Positions 19,405 to 49,959 of a stretch of 64,000 nucleotides of DNA are shown here, in pieces. Made by a program: the position numbers and the translations under genes. The stretch lies in NCBI RefSeq assembly GCF_014205215.1, contig NZ_JACHNC010000001.1:7498501-7562500 (forward strand), in the 5' to 3' direction. The notes under the pieces were generated by a model. That model searched no databases. It saw only the letters and a list, made by a program, of their open reading frames with translations, and was not told where the DNA came from. The stretch is from Actinoplanes lobatus (GTDB lineage: Bacteria > Actinomycetota > Actinomycetes > Mycobacteriales > Micromonosporaceae). Every line of letters starts with the position of its first letter. The first letter of the stretch is position 1.

Positions 19405-20742
19405 TCAGCACTCGATGACGTTGACGGCCAGACCGCCGCGGGCCGTCTCCTTGTACTTGATCTTCATGTCGGCGCCGGTCTCCTTCATGGTCTTGATGAC
19501 CTTGTCGAGGGAGACGTGGTGGCGGCCGTCGCCGCGCAGCGCCATCCTGGCGGCGGTGACCGCCTTGACCGCGGCCATGCCGTTGCGCTCGATGCACGGG
19601 ATCTGCACGAGGCCGCCGACCGGGTCGCAGGTGAGGCCCAGGTTGTGTTCCATGCCGATCTCGGCGGCGTTCTCCACCTGCTCCGGGGTGCCGCCGAGCA
19701 CCTCGGCCAGGCCGGCCGCGGCCATCGCGCACGCCGAGCCCACCTCGCCCTGACAGCCCACCTCGGCGCCCGAGATCGACGCGTTCTCCTTGAACAGCAG
19801 GCCGATCGCACCCGCCGTCAACAGGAACCGCACCACGTCATCGCCCTGCGCACCCGAGTAGTGCAGCACCGCCGGAATGATCCCGGCCGCACCGTTCGTC
19901 GGCGCGGTCACCACCCGGCCGCCGGCCGCGTTCTCCTCGTTCACCGCCATCGCGTAGACGGTCAGCCACTCCATCGCCAGCTCGTCACGGTGACCCGACG
20001 CCCGTAGCTGCCGGGCGATCCCGGCCGCCCGGCGGCGCACCTTCAAACTGCCCGGCAGCACACCCTCGGCGTCCAGGCCGGCCGCCACACATTCGCGCAT
20101 CACCTGCCAGATGCTCAGCAGCCCGGCGCGGACCTCGGCCTCCGGCCGCGCGACGGCCTCGTTCGCCAGCATCAACCGGGCGATCGACAAACCGGTGGCC
20201 CGGGTGAGCGACAACAGTTCCGCACCCGACGAGAAGGGGTACGGGACTTCCGCGTACGCCGCACGCGCGCGCGTCTCCCGTACGCCGGCAGGGTTTTGCG
20301 GGATCACGAAGCCGCCGCCGACCGAGAAATAGGTCTTGGCCAGCAGCTCCGTGCCGTCGGCGCCGAAGGCGGCGAACGTCATCCCGTTGGGATGCTCCGG
20401 CAGCGTCCGCCGCCGGTGCAGCACCAGATCCACCTCCACCGCCGGACCGTGCGGCAGCGGCAGCCGCCCCTCGGCGTGGATGCGGGCGGCCCGCTCGTCG
20501 GCGGTCGTCACGTCGACCGTCTCCGGATCGGCGCCGGTGAGCCCCAGCAGCACCGCCTTCGGCGTGCCGTGCCCGTGACCGGTGGCGCCCAGCGAGCCGA
20601 ACAGCTCGGCCCGCACCCGCGTCACGTGGTCGACACCGGCCAGATGTGCGGCGAACATGCGCGCCGCCCGCATCGGCCCGACCGTGTGCGAACTGGACGG
20701 GCCGATCCCGACGGAGAACAGGTCGAAGACCGAGACCGTCAT
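19405..20742 (-). CDS. sdaA: L-serine ammonia-lyase (serine deaminase, fused alpha-beta type)
   Basis: A 445-residue iron-sulfur L-serine dehydratase converting serine to pyruvate and ammonia. The beta-domain signature lies at the N-terminus ([20 protein letters not shown]), and the alpha domain with its cluster-binding cysteines is at the C-terminus ([32 protein letters not shown], and a terminal Cys in NVIEC). The ATG overlaps the gcvH stop by 4 bp (ATGA), so it is translationally coupled. Together the operon turns glycine into one-carbon units and serine into pyruvate. Length is normal for the family. Confidence 0.95.
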
Positions 20743-21101
20743 GACACCAGGGCGGTGTAGCCGGCCGCGTCCAGCAGGTCCGCATCGCCGGTCACGCGGA
20801 GCTTGAAGAGCCAGCCCGCGCCGTACGGATCGGTGTTGATCAAGCCTGGCTCGTCGCTCAGGGTGACGTTGACCTCGACGATCTCACCGTCGGCGGGGGC
20901 GTAGACCTCGCTCACCGACTTCGTCGACTCGATCTCACCGCACGGGTCACCGGCCTTGACCAGCGTGCCCGGCTCCGGAAGCTCCACGAACACGACATCG
21001 CCGAGCGCATCGGCGGCGAACGCCGTCACACCGACCGTCGCCGGCGAGCCCTCGGTCAGCCACTCGTGGTCACGGCTGTAGCGCAGGTTCTCGGGGATCA
21101 T
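20739..21101 (-). CDS. gcvH: Glycine cleavage system H protein
   Basis: A 120-residue lipoyl carrier of the glycine cleavage complex, shuttling the aminomethyl group between P, T and L proteins. The YSRDHEWL N-terminus, [12 protein letters not shown] and the lipoylation site [12 protein letters not shown] (Lys 61) are canonical. The ATG at 21101 has no good ribosome site: upstream is the IscB element. If the element (21102-22823) is removed, the gcvT stop is followed by GGAGCCGACC and then this ATG, an ideal native ribosome site, so the insertion has probably separated gcvH from its own translation signal. It overlaps sdaA by 4 bp. Confidence 0.95.
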
Positions 21102-21171
21102 CGCGTCATTAGGGCGGAAACCCGGTCCTTCCAGACCAGGAGAAGGCCCGGTACGGCCCGGCGGGTTTATG

Positions 21172-22479
21172 TCAGGCATGGGTTGGTTGTCCTTCGGGTT
21201 GGCGGGTGTAGGCCCAGCCGTCAGCGCGTTGCAGTAGCCGGATGTGCCGGTGGTGGATTCCTTGGACCAGTCTGGTTGTGGTGCGGATGTTGAACTTGCC
21301 GGTGGTGCGTACGGCGACCCGGCCGGTGTGCGTGCCCCGTTTGACACCGGTCGGGACGACGGCGTGGACGAGGTCGCCGGTGGCGAAGCCGTGGACCTGT
21401 TTCTTCCTGGGTAGGTGTAGGCGGGGGAAGCCGTACCTGTTGCTGCGGGTGCGGGCGTAGCTGCCCCGGCCCGTTGACGTCGCGACCAGCGTCGTGTTCG
21501 GCCAGCGGACGACGGTGTCGAGCGCGCCGGTGTGCAGGGCGTCGAGGGTGTGGGTTTTCGGTGCGCCGGTGCGGTGCCGGTTCCATTTCGTGCGGCCGCC
21601 GGTAGCAACCTGCACCGGCAGGCCGGTGCCGGTCAGCGCCCGCCACAACGCCCACCGGGTCGAACTCGCCGCGGCGGCGTCGCGCAGCGGTGTCTTCGCC
21701 TGGCGCAGGATCCGGGCGAGCACGGCGGGCCGGTCGGTGAGGAACACGTCCACCGGTGTGGAGCCTTTGGCCTGGTTGCAGGGGACGCATGCCAGGGTGA
21801 GGTTCGCGATCCGGTCGGAGCCGCCTCGCGCTCTGGGGTGGATGTGGTCGATGTTGAGCGGTATCCCCGTGGCGTTGCAGTAGGCGCAGCGGCGTTTCCA
21901 TTTCTCGAGCAGGTACTCGCGGACCTCGTACCCGGCGAGTTCGCCGGCCTGATATTCCGTACTTTGAATGGTGGGGTTCTGCAGCAGCTGGGTGTCGAAC
22001 GCAACCGTCTCGACGTGCACCTGTGTGACCGGCGTCCACCGGCGCAGCCGGTCAACCCACGACATCGTGGTGTCGACCCGGTGCCGCAGCGACGGGGCGA
22101 GCCAGCCTTGCGGCCGGGCGCGGTTGTTGAACCGTGGTGCCCGGTAGCGCAGGTTGCGTGACCGGCGGCCGCGGCGCAGCGCGGCCCGGGCGGTCAGCTT
22201 GTCGCGGATCTGCCCGCCCCGGTGCCGGATTTCGATGGCGAGCAGCCCGGTACGGGCGCCGGCCCGCGTGGTGAACACGGCGACGCCGGTCGCCTTCGAC
22301 CCCGGGTCCACACCGACCTCGACCCCCTGGATCTCAGAGTCTTGCACGGTGCGGTCTTTGAGGCGGATGACGAACGGGGTGTGCCGGTGCACGACGGCGC
22401 GGCCGGCGGCGAGCAGTTTGCGGGCACGGGCGGGGGTGCACGGTTGTAGTGGCCGGCCGTGCTTGTCGAGGACGAGCAC
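21172..22479 (-). CDS. iscB: IscB RNA-guided HNH/RuvC nuclease, copy A
   Basis: 435 residues from GTG 22479. Domain order: N-terminal PLMP-type segment (VLVLDKHGRPLQPC), RuvC-I with GVDPGSKATG, an arginine-rich bridge helix (RAALRRGRRSRNLRYR), RuvC-II around HVETVAFDTQLL, an inserted HNH with two CxxC pairs (CAYC and CVPC) around IDHIHPRARGGSDRIANL, RuvC-III at THTLDALH, then a basic C-terminus. This is the layout of IscB, the ancestor-type relative of Cas9. All catalytic residues appear intact. The frame stays open upstream to 22743 through the presumed omega-RNA, so a longer product is possible. It would be co-transcribed with the riboswitch-controlled gcv operon. Confidence 0.9.
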   Translation of the reverse strand: MLVLDKHGRPLQPCTPARARKLLAAGRAVVHRHTPFVIRLKDRTVQDSEIQGVEVGVDPGSKATGVAVFTTRAGARTGLLAIEIRHRGGQIRDKLTARAALRRGRRSRNLRYRAPRFNNRARPQGWLAPSLRHRVDTTMSWVDRLRRWTPVTQVHVETVAFDTQLLQNPTIQSTEYQAGELAGYEVREYLLEKWKRRCAYCNATGIPLNIDHIHPRARGGSDRIANLTLACVPCNQAKGSTPVDVFLTDRPAVLARILRQAKTPLRDAAAASSTRWALWRALTGTGLPVQVATGGRTKWNRHRTGAPKTHTLDALHTGALDTVVRWPNTTLVATSTGRGSYARTRSNRYGFPRLHLPRKKQVHGFATGDLVHAVVPTGVKRGTHTGRVAVRTTGKFNIRTTTRLVQGIHHRHIRLLQRADGWAYTRQPEGQPTHA

Positions 22480-22823
22480 GACCGGATGATGGGTTGGTGG
22501 GGTCTCACGGCCCCGGCCTCCGGACGGTTGCCCGCCCGGGTGACGCCACTGCCCCGCATGCGGGGCAGTGGTCTCCCCTCGCCCATGTCGCACACCAGGT
22601 ACCGCGACAGGGTCGCGGTGTCCGTGTCCCGTTTCGTGCGCTCTCGTCGGCTTGTCTGCTGACACGGATTCCAGAGTCCGGCGCTGAGGAAGCACGCCGG
22701 AGTGGGTCGACTGTCTCATGTGCAACGTAGTCACCTCCTTCAAGGTGTCTCGGGCTGGTCAGCCGTCCCCTCCACACCGAACTCGCTGACGCGAGCTCGG
22801 TCCTTCAGGGCCGAGAAGCTGAC
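22480..22823 (-). ncRNA. Putative omega-RNA (guide RNA scaffold) of IscB copy A
   Basis: The 344 bp upstream of iscB are conserved with copy B and rich in paired segments. GTCAGC at the 5' edge can pair with GCTGAC about 65 nt later; ACCGAGCTCGC pairs with GCGAGTTCGGT; and CCACTGCCCCGCA/TGCGGGGCAGTGG (22546-22571) is a perfect 13-bp hairpin. Copy B keeps these stems through G-U or loop-only changes. In the IscB family the guide is the sequence immediately 5' of the scaffold, here CGCTGAGGAGCCGACC (minus strand of 22824-22839), which spans the gcvT stop codon. Exact RNA ends are unknown. Confidence 0.7.
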
Positions 22824-22833
22824 GGTCGGCTCC

Positions 22834-23883
22834 TCAGCGGGTACGACGGTAGAAGGGCAGGGCGACGACCTCGGCGTCCACCCGGGTGCCGCGGATGTCG
22901 ACGGCGAGTTTCGTTCCCGGTACGGCCAGAGCGGCCGCCACCTGGGCCATCGCCACCGGATGGCCGAGCGTGGGGGAGAGGGCGCCACTGGTCACCACAC
23001 CCACATCCGTGCCCTCGTGCAGCACCCGGTAACCGGCCCGGGGCGCCCGGCGGCCCTCCGTCACCAGCCCGGCGAGCAGCGTCCCCGGACCCGCGGCGGC
23101 CACCGACCGCAACGCCGCGGCGCCCACGAAGTCCGTCTTGTCCAGGGCCACCACCCGGCCCAGCCCGGCATGGAACGGGGTCGAGCGCACCGACAGCTCG
23201 TGGCCGTACAGGGGCATCCCGGCCTCCAGGCGCAACGTGTCCCGGCAGGCCAGCCCACAAGGACGGGCACCACGCGCGGCCGCCCACTCCCAGATCGCCG
23301 GGGCGTCGCCGGCCGAGCAGTAGATCTCGAAACCGTCCTCGCCGGTGTAGCCGGTACGGGCCAGCAGCACCTCCCGGCCGTCCAGCCGGTCCGGGCGGAT
23401 GCCGTAGTAGGGCAGGTCAGCGCCGGTGCCGAGCACGTCCAGCGACATCGGGCCCTGCACCGCGATCAGGACGCCGGGCTGTTCGTCGACGCGTACGTCG
23501 TACCCGTTGGCATGCTCGCCCAGCATGGCCCGCACCACCGCGGCGTTGGCGGCGTTCGCCACCACCAGGAACTCCCGCTCGGCCAGCCGGTAGACCACCA
23601 GATCGTCGAGAACCCCGCCGTTGGTGTGGCACAGCATCGTGTACTTGGCGCGACCCACCTTCACCGCCGACATCCGGCCGACCAGAGCCCAGTCCAGGAA
23701 GGCGGGATCGCCGGACACCCGGATCCGGCCCATGTGGCTCAGATCGAACAGGCCCGCGCCGTCCCGGACCGTGTGATGCTCGGCCAGATCACTGCCGTAG
23801 CGCAGCGGCATCGACCAGCCGGCGAAATCGGTGAAGGACGCGCCCAGGCGGGAATGGACGTCGAACAGCGCGGTGCGTCTCAC
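22834..23883 (-). CDS. gcvT: Glycine cleavage system T protein (aminomethyltransferase)
   Basis: A 349-residue tetrahydrofolate-dependent aminomethyltransferase, slightly short but complete. Visible family features: FAGWSMPLRYG, GAGLFDLSHMGR, the QGP segment, ARTGYTGEDGFEIY (folate and glycine-cleavage signature) and PCGLACRDTLRLEAGMPLYGHEL. The GTG start at 23883 has AGGAG 8 nt upstream. A tandem glycine riboswitch occupies the leader. It transfers the methylene group from lipoylated GcvH to THF, releasing ammonia. Downstream on the same strand come iscB, gcvH and sdaA; gcvP is not in the window. Confidence 0.95.
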   Translation of the reverse strand: MRRTALFDVHSRLGASFTDFAGWSMPLRYGSDLAEHHTVRDGAGLFDLSHMGRIRVSGDPAFLDWALVGRMSAVKVGRAKYTMLCHTNGGVLDDLVVYRLAEREFLVVANAANAAVVRAMLGEHANGYDVRVDEQPGVLIAVQGPMSLDVLGTGADLPYYGIRPDRLDGREVLLARTGYTGEDGFEIYCSAGDAPAIWEWAAARGARPCGLACRDTLRLEAGMPLYGHELSVRSTPFHAGLGRVVALDKTDFVGAAALRSVAAAGPGTLLAGLVTEGRRAPRAGYRVLHEGTDVGVVTSGALSPTLGHPVAMAQVAAALAVPGTKLAVDIRGTRVDAEVVALPFYRRTR

Positions 23884-23910
23884 GAAGGAGGCTCCTGTGG
23901 TAGCGGGTGG

Positions 23911-24103
23911 GCCTCCCTCGCTCTGTCATGGGGCCTGAGAGGTTCACCGCCGAGGCGGTTTGCACCGTGGGCGCGGACCGCTGGCGGCGGACCGACTTTC
24001 CAGAGTCGCCTGACCGGTCGCGGTACCTGAGCCTGAGAGATTCTGAGGGAGAAGTTGCTCCTTCGGCGCCCCGCCACCAGGGTGGGGACTCTCCCGCGAC
24101 GGT
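23911..24103 (-). promoter_or_regulatory. Tandem glycine riboswitch upstream of gcvT
   Basis: Read on the minus strand, aptamer 1 contains GCGGGAGAG, GGCGCCGAAGGAGCAAC, AATCTCTCAGGCTCAGG and ends CTCTGGAAAG; aptamer 2 ends AACCTCTCAGGCCCCATGACAGAGC. These are the conserved glycine-aptamer core elements in their normal order. It begins about 220 nt before the gcvT start. In other bacteria this RNA switches gcvT operons on when glycine is abundant. Because iscB lies between gcvT and gcvH, its transcription is likely glycine-dependent too. Confidence 0.9.
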
Positions 24104-24170
24104 TGCAGCGGCGAAGTTTTCGGTTGTCTCGCGAACCTATCCGGCCCCGAACACGACGGTCAACCCGGGG

Positions 24171-30994: not shown

Positions 30995-31163
30995 CCCCCG
31001 TCGCGGGCGTTTCCTTGATAGCGTCCCGGGTGCGGGCCGAGAGGCGCTGCGACGGATGGACATCCGCCACGCTCGGCTCGCGCCTGGTCGTAAGGGCGCC
31101 TCCCACCGGGAGGTCGCCCGCGCCGTGGGTCCCCGGTGGATGACACGCACGGGGACGGACACC

Positions 31164-46892: not shown

Positions 46893-47363
46893 ATGCTGGG
46901 TGTGCATTTCGCGATCACCGCGGATCAGGAGCAGGCGCTGCTCGACGCGGACGGCGACGACGACGCGGTCGGTGACCTGCTCGGGGACATCGAGGAGAAC
47001 TGGGACGACGACCAGCTCAAGGTCGACACCGACAAGGCCTGGGACGAGATCCACCGCTGCCTCACCGACGGCAGTCTCGACCCGGACGCCGGCGACTACC
47101 CGCTGTCACACGCGATTCTCGGCGGTCGCGACATGCACGACGAGTACTACGTCATCTACGTCGACGCCGGCCAGGTCCGCGACGTGGCCGGCGCGCTGCG
47201 CGACATCGACCGGGCCGGGCTGCGGCAACGGTTCGACACCCTGCTGCCGGTCGGCGAGCGCGACTACGACTTCGACCTCCTCTGGACGGATTATGTCGAG
47301 GTCGTCAACTTCTACCAGCGTGCCGCCGCCGCGGGACGCGCCGTCCTCTTCACCGCGACCTGA
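46893..47363 (+). CDS. YfbM-like (DUF1877) protein
   Basis: A 156-residue acidic protein of the DUF1877/YfbM type: an opening that starts LGVHFAITADQ, a DKAWDEIHRCLTDGSLDPD core, HAILGGRDMHDEYYVIYVD and VREV-like helices near GALRDIDRAGLRQRFDTLL. Function unknown across bacteria. The ATG is 6 nt after TATGAT (46881-46886) without ribosome site, so it is likely leaderless. The IscB copy B element starts 32 bp after its stop. Confidence 0.82.
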   Translation: MLGVHFAITADQEQALLDADGDDDAVGDLLGDIEENWDDDQLKVDTDKAWDEIHRCLTDGSLDPDAGDYPLSHAILGGRDMHDEYYVIYVDAGQVRDVAGALRDIDRAGLRQRFDTLLPVGERDYDFDLLWTDYVEVVNFYQRAAAAGRAVLFTAT

Positions 47364-47394
47364 GCACCCGGGAGTCACTGTGGCGAGTTGGCAG

Positions 47395-47738
47395 GTCAGC
47401 TTCTCGGCCCTGAAGGACCGTGCTCGCGTCAGCGGGTTCGGTGTGGAGGGGACGGTTGACCAGCCCGAGGCACCTTGAAGGAGGTGACTACGTTGCATAC
47501 GAGACAGTCGACCCACTCCGGCGTGCTTCCTCAGCGCCGGACTCTGGAATCCGTGTCAGCAGACAAGCCGACGAGAGCGCACGAAACGGGACACGGATAC
47601 CGCGACCCTGTTGCGGTACCTGGTGTGCGACATGGGCGAGGGGAGACCACTGCCCCGATTCCGGGGCAGTGGCGTCACCCGGACGGGCAGCCGTCCGGAG
47701 ACCGGGGCCGTAAGGCCCCACCAACCCATCATCCGGTC
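47395..47738 (+). ncRNA. Putative omega-RNA of IscB copy B
   Basis: 344 bp, the same length as copy A's scaffold. The 5' stem GTCAGC now pairs with GTTGAC (a G-U in place of G-C). The large hairpin is CCACTGCCCCG/CGGGGCAGTGG (47647-47672) with loop ATTC, where copy A has GCATGC-type bases: arms conserved, tip changed. A perfect Shine-Dalgarno AAGGAGGTGA (47478-47487) precedes an in-frame TTG (47493). The predicted guide is the 16 nt just upstream of 47395. RNA ends are unknown. Confidence 0.7.
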
Positions 47739-49046
47739 GTGTTCGTCCTGGACAAACACGGCCGGCCACTGCAACCGTGCACACCCGCCCGTGCCCGTAA
47801 ACTGCTCACCGCCGGCCGCGCGGTCGTGCACCGGCACACCCCGTTCGTCGTCCGCCTCAAAGACCGCACCGTGCAAGACTCTGAGATCCAGGGGGTCGAG
47901 GTCGGTGTGGACCCGGGGTCGAAGGCGACCGGCGTCGCCGCGTTCACCACCCAGACTGGCGCCCGGACCGGGCTACTCGCCATCGAGGTCCGGCATCGGG
48001 GCGGGCAGATCCGCGACAAGCTGACCGCCCGGGCCGCGCTGCGCCGCGGCCGCCGGTCACGCAACCTGCGCTACCGGGCACCCCGGTTCCGCAACCGTGC
48101 CCGGCCGAAAGGCTGGCTCGCCCCGTCGCTACAACACCGGGTCGACACCACCATGTCCTGGATTGAGCGGCTACGCCGATGGGCACCAGTCATACAGCTA
48201 CACGTCGAACGGGTCGCGTTCGACACCCAGCTGCTGCAGAACCCCACCATTCAGGGCGCGGAGTATCAGGCTGGGGAACTCGCCGGGTACGAGGTCCGCG
48301 AGTACCTGCTCGAGAAGTGGAAACGCCGCTGCGCCTACTGCGGCGCCTCGGGGGTGCCGCTCAACATCGACCACATCCACCCGAAAGCGCGAGGCGGCTC
48401 CGACCGGATCGCGAACCTCACCCTGGCATGCGTCCCGTGCAACCAGGCGAAAGGCTCCACACCGGTGGAGGTGTTCCTGACCGGCCGGCCGGTCGTGCTC
48501 GCCCGGATTCTGCGTCAGGTGAAGACACCGCTGCGTGACGCGGCGGCGGCGAGTTCGACCCGGTGGGCGTTGTGGCGGGCGCTGACCGGCACCGGCCTAC
48601 AGGTGGCGGTTGCAACCGGCGGCCGCACGAAATGGAACCGCGCGCGGACCGGCGCACCGAAAACCCACACCCTCGACGCGCTACACGTCGGCGTACTCGA
48701 CACCGTCACCCGCTGGCCGGGCACGACGCTGGTCGCGACGTCGACGGGCCGGGGCAGCTATGCCCGCACCCGCAGCGACCGGTACGGCTTCCCCCGGCTG
48801 CGCCTACCCAGGATCAAACAGGTGTGGGGCTTCGCCACCGGTGACCTCGTCCACGCCGTCGTCCCTTCCGGTGTCAAACGGGGCACGCACACCGGCCGGG
48901 TCGCCGTACGCAGCACCGGCAGCTTCAACATCCGCACCAAAACCGGGCTGGTCCAAGGAATCCACCACCGCCACATCCGGCTCCTGCAACGCGCCGACGG
49001 CTGGGCCTACACCCACCAACCCGAAGGACAACCAACCGATGCCTGA
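47739..49046 (+). CDS. iscB: IscB RNA-guided HNH/RuvC nuclease, copy B
   Basis: 435 residues from GTG 47739, the same length as copy A with scattered substitutions and no indel. Active-site residues by position: Asp 58 in GVDPGSKATG (RuvC-I), Glu 157 in LHVERVAFDTQ (RuvC-II), Cys 198/201 and the IDHIHPKARGGSD loop (His 212) of the HNH, and His 310/Asp 313 in THTLDAL (RuvC-III). The bridge helix RRGRRSRNLRYR is intact. All catalytic motifs are present, so both copies look functional. The frame is also open from 47475, giving a possible N-terminal extension. Transcription may come from the YfbM-like gene or an internal promoter. Confidence 0.9.
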   Translation: MFVLDKHGRPLQPCTPARARKLLTAGRAVVHRHTPFVVRLKDRTVQDSEIQGVEVGVDPGSKATGVAAFTTQTGARTGLLAIEVRHRGGQIRDKLTARAALRRGRRSRNLRYRAPRFRNRARPKGWLAPSLQHRVDTTMSWIERLRRWAPVIQLHVERVAFDTQLLQNPTIQGAEYQAGELAGYEVREYLLEKWKRRCAYCGASGVPLNIDHIHPKARGGSDRIANLTLACVPCNQAKGSTPVEVFLTGRPVVLARILRQVKTPLRDAAAASSTRWALWRALTGTGLQVAVATGGRTKWNRARTGAPKTHTLDALHVGVLDTVTRWPGTTLVATSTGRGSYARTRSDRYGFPRLRLPRIKQVWGFATGDLVHAVVPSGVKRGTHTGRVAVRSTGSFNIRTKTGLVQGIHHRHIRLLQRADGWAYTHQPEGQPTDA

Positions 49047-49080
49047 CACGAAACGTCCGGGACGTACCGGGCTCCTCCCG

Positions 49081-49959
49081 ATGAGTGTGGTGGCGGCCTT
49101 CACCCGGCTCGCTTACCAGCGGAAATTCATCAGCGAAGAGGCCGGGCTGCGGACGCTCGCGCGCCCGAAGGGACCTTCCAAGCCGCCTTCGGCGATCATG
49201 CGACGGTACGAGGTGAGCACCTCCCAGGAGCACGGCTTCGACCTACACCGGGTCCGCCCGTCCGGCCCGGACACCGGGGTGACCGTCATCTACCTGCACG
49301 GCGGCGCCTACACGAGCGAGATCGTCAGCCAGCACTGGTCGTTGATCGGGCACATCGCCGCGCGTACCGGGCATGAGGTGGCCGTGCCCATCTACGGCCT
49401 CGCGCCGGACCACCAGGGTCTCGCCGCCCTGTCGTTCGTCACCGCCGTGATCGCCGACCTGGTGGCCGAGGGCCGCCGCTGCTACCTGGCCGGCGACTCG
49501 GCCGGCGGAGGCCTGGCCCTGCTCGCCGCGCAGGCCGTCTCGGGCGAGGCCGGGGGAGTGGTCGGCGTGACCGCGATCGCCCCGTGGCTCGACCTGTCGA
49601 TCAGCAACCCCGAGGTCGACCTGATCGAGCCCCACGATCCCTGGTTGCGCCGTCCGGGCCTGCGCCCGCTGGCCGCCGCGTGGGCGGGTTCGCTGCCTCT
49701 ACGGGATCCGCGCCTGAGCCCGCTCTTCGGCGACCTGTCCTGCCTGCCGCCGTTGCAGATCCTGGTCGGGACCCGGGACATCACCCTGGCCGACTGCCGC
49801 CTGCTCCGCGACCGCCTGCCGTCCGCGGTCCCGCTCACCTACCACGAGGAGCCGGGCGCCCTGCACGTCTACCCGCTGCTTCCGGTCCCCGAGGCCGGCC
49901 CCGGCCGCGAAGCCGTCGTCACCCACATCCGGTCGACGACCCGCCTGACCCACCCCTGA
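49081..49959 (+). CDS. Alpha/beta hydrolase (HSL/steryl-esterase-like)
   Basis: A 292-residue hydrolase of the hormone-sensitive-lipase group. The oxyanion-hole motif is VIYLHGGAYTSE, the nucleophile elbow YLAGDSAGGGLALL, the Asp region VGTRDITLAD, and the catalytic His is in GALHVYPLLP. The ATGA of its start coincides with the right edge of IscB copy B, so the element has probably replaced its native leader; no strong ribosome site now precedes it except the element's own sequence. Substrate: a short acyl ester, unspecified. Confidence 0.87.
   Translation: MSVVAAFTRLAYQRKFISEEAGLRTLARPKGPSKPPSAIMRRYEVSTSQEHGFDLHRVRPSGPDTGVTVIYLHGGAYTSEIVSQHWSLIGHIAARTGHEVAVPIYGLAPDHQGLAALSFVTAVIADLVAEGRRCYLAGDSAGGGLALLAAQAVSGEAGGVVGVTAIAPWLDLSISNPEVDLIEPHDPWLRRPGLRPLAAAWAGSLPLRDPRLSPLFGDLSCLPPLQILVGTRDITLADCRLLRDRLPSAVPLTYHEEPGALHVYPLLPVPEAGPGREAVVTHIRSTTRLTHP

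Follow-up and report, generated by a model that had tools for sequence, protein, structure and literature searches.

IscB elements without a transposase in Actinoplanes lobatus are inserted directly 5' of ATGA start codons, and translation of iscB probably starts within the omega-RNA

The stretch of Actinoplanes lobatus DNA analysed here (64,000 nucleotides, hereafter the window) contains two copies of an element that encodes IscB, the ancestor type of Cas9. Comparison of these copies with their relatives and with empty sites in congeners suggests that they are HEARO/IscB elements without a transposase, which are inserted 5' of ATGA start codons, and in which iscB is probably started within the omega-RNA. 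A probability of roughly 0.75 is given to this reading. The positions of the features are shown in Table 1.

Table 1. Features of IscB copies A and B and of the adjacent host genes (positions in the window)
Feature	Position	Strand	Basis
Copy A, complete element (IscB with HEARO) of 1686 bp	47395..49080	+	Both flanks joined in L082 and L083 of a congener; 1-nt G ambiguity
Copy B, complete element (IscB with HEARO) of 1722 bp, located between gcvT and gcvH	21102..22823	-	Both flanks joined in L052 of a congener
Copy A, canonical IscB region, 435 aa, GTG start	47739..49046	+	NF040563, PF14239, PF01844
Copy B, canonical IscB region, 435 aa, GTG start	21172..22479	-	NCBIfam guided_IscB, Pfam RRXRR and HNH
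Copy A, omega-RNA (HEARO) scaffold	47395..47650	+	RF02033, 75.2 bits, E 7.6e-15
Copy B, omega-RNA (HEARO) scaffold	22568..22823	-	RF02033, 76.8 bits, E 3e-15
Copy A, predicted 16-nt guide, from host DNA outside the element	47379..47394	+	Analogy; same 16 nt before ATGA in empty site
Copy B, predicted 16-nt guide, containing host Shine-Dalgarno GAGGAG	22824..22839	-	Sequence; analogy
Copy A, Shine-Dalgarno AAGGAGGTG inside omega-RNA	47478..47486	+	Sequence; fold; conserved
Copy B, Shine-Dalgarno inside omega-RNA	22732..22740	-	Sequence
Copy A, probable full iscB frame from TTG 47493, 517 aa, 82 codons in leader	47493..49046	+	Open frame; clade-wide conservation
Copy B, probable full iscB frame from TTG 22725	21172..22725	-	Open frame; clade comparison
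Copy B, right end with hairpin-like GGTCTGGAAGGACC, missing in copy A	21102..21171	-	Comparison of the copies' sequences
Alpha/beta hydrolase gene, start ATGA right after copy A	49081..49959	+	NCBIfam lipase-like matches, below cut-offs; empty site
gcvH, start ATGA right after copy B	20739..21101	-	NF002270 above cut-off, residues 2-119 to model 4-126; empty site
gcvT, upstream of copy B	22834..23883	-	ORF; glycine riboswitch upstream; name from operon context and sequence

The NCBIfam model guided_IscB matches copies A and B with scores of 433.3 and 436 bits respectively (cut-off, 175 bits), and the Pfam models RRXRR and HNH match both copies above their cut-offs. The canonical IscB regions of the two copies, 435 codons each, are 90% identical. 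The RuvC-I, RuvC-II, HNH and RuvC-III motifs and both CxxC pairs are present in both copies, in agreement with the claim of an earlier, sequence-only reading that all RuvC and HNH catalytic residues are present. Both copies align in part with solved IscB chains. The sequence-only reading described two intact orphan IscB proteins of 435 residues with matching putative omega-RNAs. The matches to guided_IscB and HEARO support the assignment as orphan IscB with omega-RNA, and the length of 435 residues holds for the canonical regions, but the protein is longer if it is started at the probable site inside the omega-RNA. The two copies are real, but the genome search finds five, of which three are closely similar and lie within 64 kb, the other two being diverged. 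The word intact fits the open frames and the motifs, but not in every respect, because the hairpin-like right-end sequence of copy A is gone, the right end of copy 3 is broken, and no transposase is located in cis. The dN/dS values among the three close copies are 0.27-0.32, and purifying selection on the iscB core of these copies is supported by their sequences. When 150 genomes of the family were searched, a full-length IscB match was found in two (A. lobatus and G148), weak matches were found in 144 (no E-value better than 3e-10; the matches listed fall in the HNH part), and no match was found in four.

The closest congener, G166, has empty sites for four of the five copies (A, B, 4 and 5). 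An empty site of copy 3 was not found in the congeners searched. The unit boundaries of copies A and B proposed earlier agree with the empty sites to within one base. Copies A, B, 4 and 5 are clean insertions without target duplication, located directly 5' of ATGA, and the ATG of this ATGA opens a downstream host frame on the same strand in all of these four testable copies. Insertion without duplication beside a fixed short sequence, a trait of IS200/IS605-type elements, is likewise seen in 4/4 testable copies. Copy 4 is inserted upstream of an oxidoreductase-like gene, and copy 5 upstream of a gene read as VWA-type, both genes being named from their sequences. In the empty site of copy 4, the Shine-Dalgarno-like sequence GGAAGGA precedes the ATGA. 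In that of copy B, GAGGAG is located right before the gcvH start, indicating that copy B has parted gcvH from its ribosome-binding site.

Six matches to Y1 transposase are present in the genome. None of them lies in the window, consistent with the earlier statement that no transposase is nearby, and none lies in or near any of the IscB copies. No TnpA is found in the flanks of the relatives' elements when the two TnpA of A. lobatus alone are used as queries. When the TnpA loci of the genome were matched to the ends of the IscB elements, the best E-value (0.003) was unconvincing. Judging from the sequences, the copies are filed as non-autonomous (transposase-less) IscB elements, no TnpA of the IS200/IS605 type being found with them. 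They are alike in this respect to the HEARO nucleases in general, near which TnpA is seldom located according to PMC9755519.

The right end of copy A is shorter than that of copy B by approximately 36 nt (34 versus 70 nt after the iscB stop). Subterminal hairpins at both ends would be expected of an IS200/IS605-type element. As judged by eye, the candidate sequence GGCCCTGAAGGACC is present at both ends of copy 3, a similar sequence at the right end of copy B, and none at that of copy A. The right end of copy 3 (L016:3150-3210) stops after a hairpin-like repeat, RTGA is not directly next to it, and this end looks rearranged. The three close copies (L016, which is G000:C1:7482186-7486872, A and B) lie together in the small fraction of the 10.4-Mb chromosome given above, and local hopping is possible.

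The leaders of both copies are 344 nt long and conserved, as previously read, and each carries a full-length match to HEARO RF02033 that begins exactly where the element begins. Both matches score below 83 bits, the gathering score of RF02033 in Rfam, which is a curator's threshold, and therefore a default Rfam scan of the window lists two riboswitches and no HEARO. The predicted fold of the leader at 47395-47738 has a z value of -4.6, and 52 of the 78 predicted omega-RNA pairs show compensatory changes across relatives. The position and length of the 16-nt guide in copies A and B are taken by us to be as in known omega-RNAs. The 16 nt outside the left end are identical in the empty allele of the congener for copies A, B and 5, and the congener allele would therefore be a target. 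A promoter scan of positions 47000-49500 detects no sigma-70-like site.

The frame of copy A is open from 47475 across the leader into IscB. AAGGAGGTG is the only strong ribosome-binding site and is located six bases before TTG 47493; no Shine-Dalgarno sequence is found before the canonical GTG 47739 of this copy. In the predicted fold, the GAGGTG of the Shine-Dalgarno sequence and the TTG are both paired. The leader frame was compared among 25 loci of the clade in which the left end and the motif were found, with exclusion of the broken L156 and of the G148 copy, the start of which was not located. Counted from a conserved ACG in the omega-RNA, the first IscB codon lies at a distance divisible by three in all of these loci, although 12 different lengths, from 225 to 294, occur. 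The leader is open in the iscB frame in all 25 loci, whereas the other two frames are open in 13 (+1) and 3 loci, and 7.6 open leaders are expected from composition. A Shine-Dalgarno-like core and a start codon are present inside the omega-RNA in 23 loci. The two loci without a clear pair of these signals, L174 and L178, are AT-richer, and the other frames of their leaders are interrupted by three to five stops, the iscB frame by none. In a comparison set of 15 loci, none of the 14 leaders from outside the clade is open, and their distances leave mixed remainders on division by three; the sole open member of this set, L179, is a second copy of the element of L178. Ten further loci, three of which (L175, L176 and L180) had been glimpsed earlier, are all open for at least 80 codons. 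In a quick maximum-likelihood tree of 92 proteins, in which open means at least 70 codons, the leader is open in 35/35 members of the clade (SH-aLRT 99) versus 8/57 outside it; this tree omits L156, L176, L181, L188, L203, L212, L213, the plasmid copies L271 and L275, and proteins of less than 380 residues. The in-frame clade consists of Actinomycetota and one Dormiibacterota. The broken actinobacterial copy L156 has a closed leader.

At the position of the canonical IscB start, six copies from Streptomyces carry GTC or GTT. Two of them (L164 and L203) contain no in-frame ATG, GTG or TTG in the last 75 leader codons, and the other four contain one or two in-frame starts, located 8-58 codons ahead of the core, all of which lack a Shine-Dalgarno core. 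The missing canonical start codon was rejected as a stand-alone proof, since GTG is likewise absent at this position in relatives outside the clade, whose annotated starts are a few codons upstream. Fourteen database proteins of 473-538 aa carry the extension wholly or partly (one of them is listed without a source, like the window's own proteins), indicating that gene callers often pick a leader start. The PGAP start of the S. canus plasmid copy is at the core, not in the leader. Taken as comparative evidence, these observations strongly support that iscB translation in the clade would begin inside the omega-RNA, at a Shine-Dalgarno sequence that is partly held in a hairpin.

Alternatively, translation may begin at the canonical GTG (47739 in copy A and 22479 in copy B), and the omega-RNA may look open merely because it is GC-rich and structurally constrained. 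The differences between the close copies at codon positions 1, 2 and 3 are 0.111, 0.101 and 0.095 in the leader, and 0.109, 0.086 and 0.291 in the core, where the third position is in excess. This third-position coding signal, tested among the close copies, is absent in the leader. The equal change of the leader codon positions favours a canonical GTG start and means that the amino acids of the tail are not visibly selected, such that the case for an in-frame leader is built on the frame, its phase, the start signals and the phylogeny. The core start given by PGAP in one plasmid record and the frequent openness of GC-rich sequences, of which the +1 frame is an example, also speak for the canonical GTG. 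However, GC content does not readily account for the difference between the clade and its relatives in the tree, for the 12 leader lengths that are all multiples of three, or for the AT-richer L174 and L178, and a start at the canonical position is difficult to reconcile with the six Streptomyces copies without a start codon there, particularly L164 and L203, and with the lack of a Shine-Dalgarno sequence ahead of the copy A GTG. It is therefore unlikely that the canonical GTG is the start. The strong conservation of the RNA structure, together with phase and openness, indicates that the frame must pass through the leader, the tail residues being dictated by the RNA. AlphaFold predicts the 523-residue frame with a mean pLDDT of 49 and a pTM of 0.30. 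Residues 1-89 all have a pLDDT below 50 and no secondary structure, but many later residues are also below 50, so that the model hints at most weakly that the leader-encoded tail may be disordered.

The start-codon pattern was analysed in 80 related loci, from which the truncated L192, L211, L216 and L219 were left out, together with the five A. lobatus copies (81 in total). The left end, placed by the HEARO 5' stem alone, is found in 65 loci. Sixty of these were used for the Shine-Dalgarno test, L181, L198, L212 and L220 being dropped for a doubtful left end and L196 for too short a flank, and 57 remained after removal of three loci with similar flanks. In 35 of the 57 non-redundant loci, the window that runs from 18 to 4 nt outside the left end contains a Shine-Dalgarno core, as compared with 5-11 of 57 in the neighbouring 15-nt windows and 16% in random windows (binomial p 6e-15). 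At the right end, a long frame opened by RTGA (70 codons or more, or no fewer than 40 where the frame runs off the contig) is present within 135 nt in 50/78 loci and absent in 28/78; 3/81 are unreadable. When 28 RTGA-started downstream genes were scanned, 14 began at the canonical N-terminus of their family by a loose reading (match beginning no later than residue 10 and model position 14; L170, a weak further case, is uncounted), which is not an unbiased rate because these genes were picked for their RTGA-opened long frames. The 14 include the genes for HutH, HisB, UppS, MenD, XseB, YbeY, RuvA, peptide deformylase and thioredoxin, and GcvH downstream of copy B also begins at its canonical N-terminus.

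In a test fixed beforehand on 20 annotated plasmid records, the next gene is RTGA-started at the element end in 6/20 (p 0.046), and in 8/20 when the distance limit is relaxed afterwards (p 0.003), the baseline being 20 starts among 146 RTGA sites outside genes (13.7%). A left-end Shine-Dalgarno core is present in 6 of the 16 placed left ends of plasmid copies. As far as these sequences tell, the habit of sitting at start codons is genuine without being universal, because 28/78 loci lack the RTGA frame and the plasmid test is weaker. The iscB stop overlaps RTGA in 15/78 loci, of which L176, L188 and c4 are unreliable in the assignment of stop or frame, suggesting that the target itself may supply the iscB stop. 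A Shine-Dalgarno sequence supplied by the element was rejected as a general rule, since it is seen in only 10/78 loci. Neither this sequence nor the stop/start overlap is present in 25/78 loci, including copies A and B. The plasmid copies L273 (Deinococcus) and L276 (Trichormus) are located between parA and parB, directly before the annotated parB start codon.

The origin of the start-codon pattern, rather than its existence, is at issue when it is proposed that insertion occurs at any RTGA and persists only where genes are spared. The occurrence of elements without a right-end start codon favours such survivorship, as does the location of 541 of the 687 RTGA sites of the annotated plasmid stretches inside genes, where an insertion would often harm. 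The low frequency of starts among non-genic RTGA sites, as against 4/4 testable copies in A. lobatus, and the sharp Shine-Dalgarno peak argue in the opposite direction, and the odds of survivorship are about even. It is far less probable that the copies are decaying relics. The damaged right ends of copies A and 3 and the lack of a transposase in cis would fit decay, but open frames, the full set of motifs, full-length HEARO matches and the dN/dS values of the close copies do not. Slightly less probable still is that the copies have been domesticated as operon parts that are kept to regulate gcvH and the hydrolase gene. Their orientation, which is that of the host genes, the purifying selection, the position of copy B downstream of a glycine riboswitch and the loss of the hairpin-like right-end sequence of copy A are compatible with domestication. 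However, all 14 congeners in the family sample have at most an HNH-type match, and the empty sites of the close congener indicate that the copies lack conservation at their present positions.

For elements that are inserted before start codons and start iscB within the omega-RNA, the following mechanism may be envisaged. Comparison with the empty sites shows insertion directly before the host ATGA, by which the host ribosome-binding region became the outer left flank of the element. From the known biology of these nucleases, this flank would supply the guide, and ATGA would be the target-adjacent motif. The complex of IscB and omega-RNA would then cut the empty site, and repair from the filled copy would restore or spread the element. 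A single stretch of RNA would be both the guide scaffold and the coding sequence of the N-terminal tail. Guide use and translation would be mutually exclusive for each RNA molecule, because a translating ribosome would open up the scaffold, and the ribosome-binding site would be covered when the scaffold is folded or bound by IscB; this may provide feedback on IscB. The wider proposal, that in one large IscB clade iscB has no independent start and its RNA is either guide or message, and that the elements are adapted to land between the Shine-Dalgarno sequence and the start codon of a host gene, some of them restoring translation with their own Shine-Dalgarno sequence or taking the stop codon of iscB from the host ATGA, may equally prove right or wrong.

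The present elements resemble the known HEARO RF02033/IscB system (OMEGA nuclease) in that an HNH/RuvC nuclease has an omega-RNA directly upstream, and in that the element starts with GUCA and is flanked on the right by ATGA. Weinberg reportedly described ATGA/GTGA as the HEARO integration site in 2009. The present elements differ from this system by the common frame of leader and iscB in their clade and by insertion at start codons. In the omega-RNA of IsrB, a Shine-Dalgarno sequence is also located in a hairpin and has been suggested to regulate expression, but this is the terminal hairpin immediately before the gene (PMC9581776), whereas here it is an early hairpin, approximately 250 nt in frame before the canonical start. 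The reRNA of TnpB (ISDra2) also overlaps the nuclease gene, at the 3' end of tnpB according to PMC8612924, but the nuclease is different, the gene end is the opposite one, and the guide is at the 3' end of the RNA. IscB, HEARO, the rarity of TnpA, the hairpin Shine-Dalgarno sequence of IsrB and the 3' overlap of reRNA and the TnpB gene are already known. In the open-access literature searched, no omega-RNA in frame with its IscB and no IscB elements at start codons were found. If the arrangement is true clade-wide, the guide RNA would be the start of the message, and production of the nuclease or its arming would be chosen by a simple switch within the RNA itself; annotations that place the start of actinobacterial IscB at the core would then be in error. 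Insertion before start codons would account for the presence of such elements within operons, and allows guide and TAM to be predicted, and the prediction to be tested, in many genomes.

Several minor features accompany these elements. In the Streptomyces loci L164, L165, L166, L172, L203 and L218, iscB is followed by a conserved stretch, mostly with its own GGAGGTG, and by a GC-rich repeat. Copy B is located inside an apparent glycine operon (19405-24106) that consists of a riboswitch, gcvT, iscB, gcvH and an L-serine dehydratase-like gene, the last being named from its sequence. The glycine riboswitch (24011-24106, minus strand) heads this operon, and the mobile nuclease may therefore be under riboswitch control. 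A match to the SAH riboswitch is present at 31033-31108, with a score just at the gathering score (37.3 versus 37 bits).
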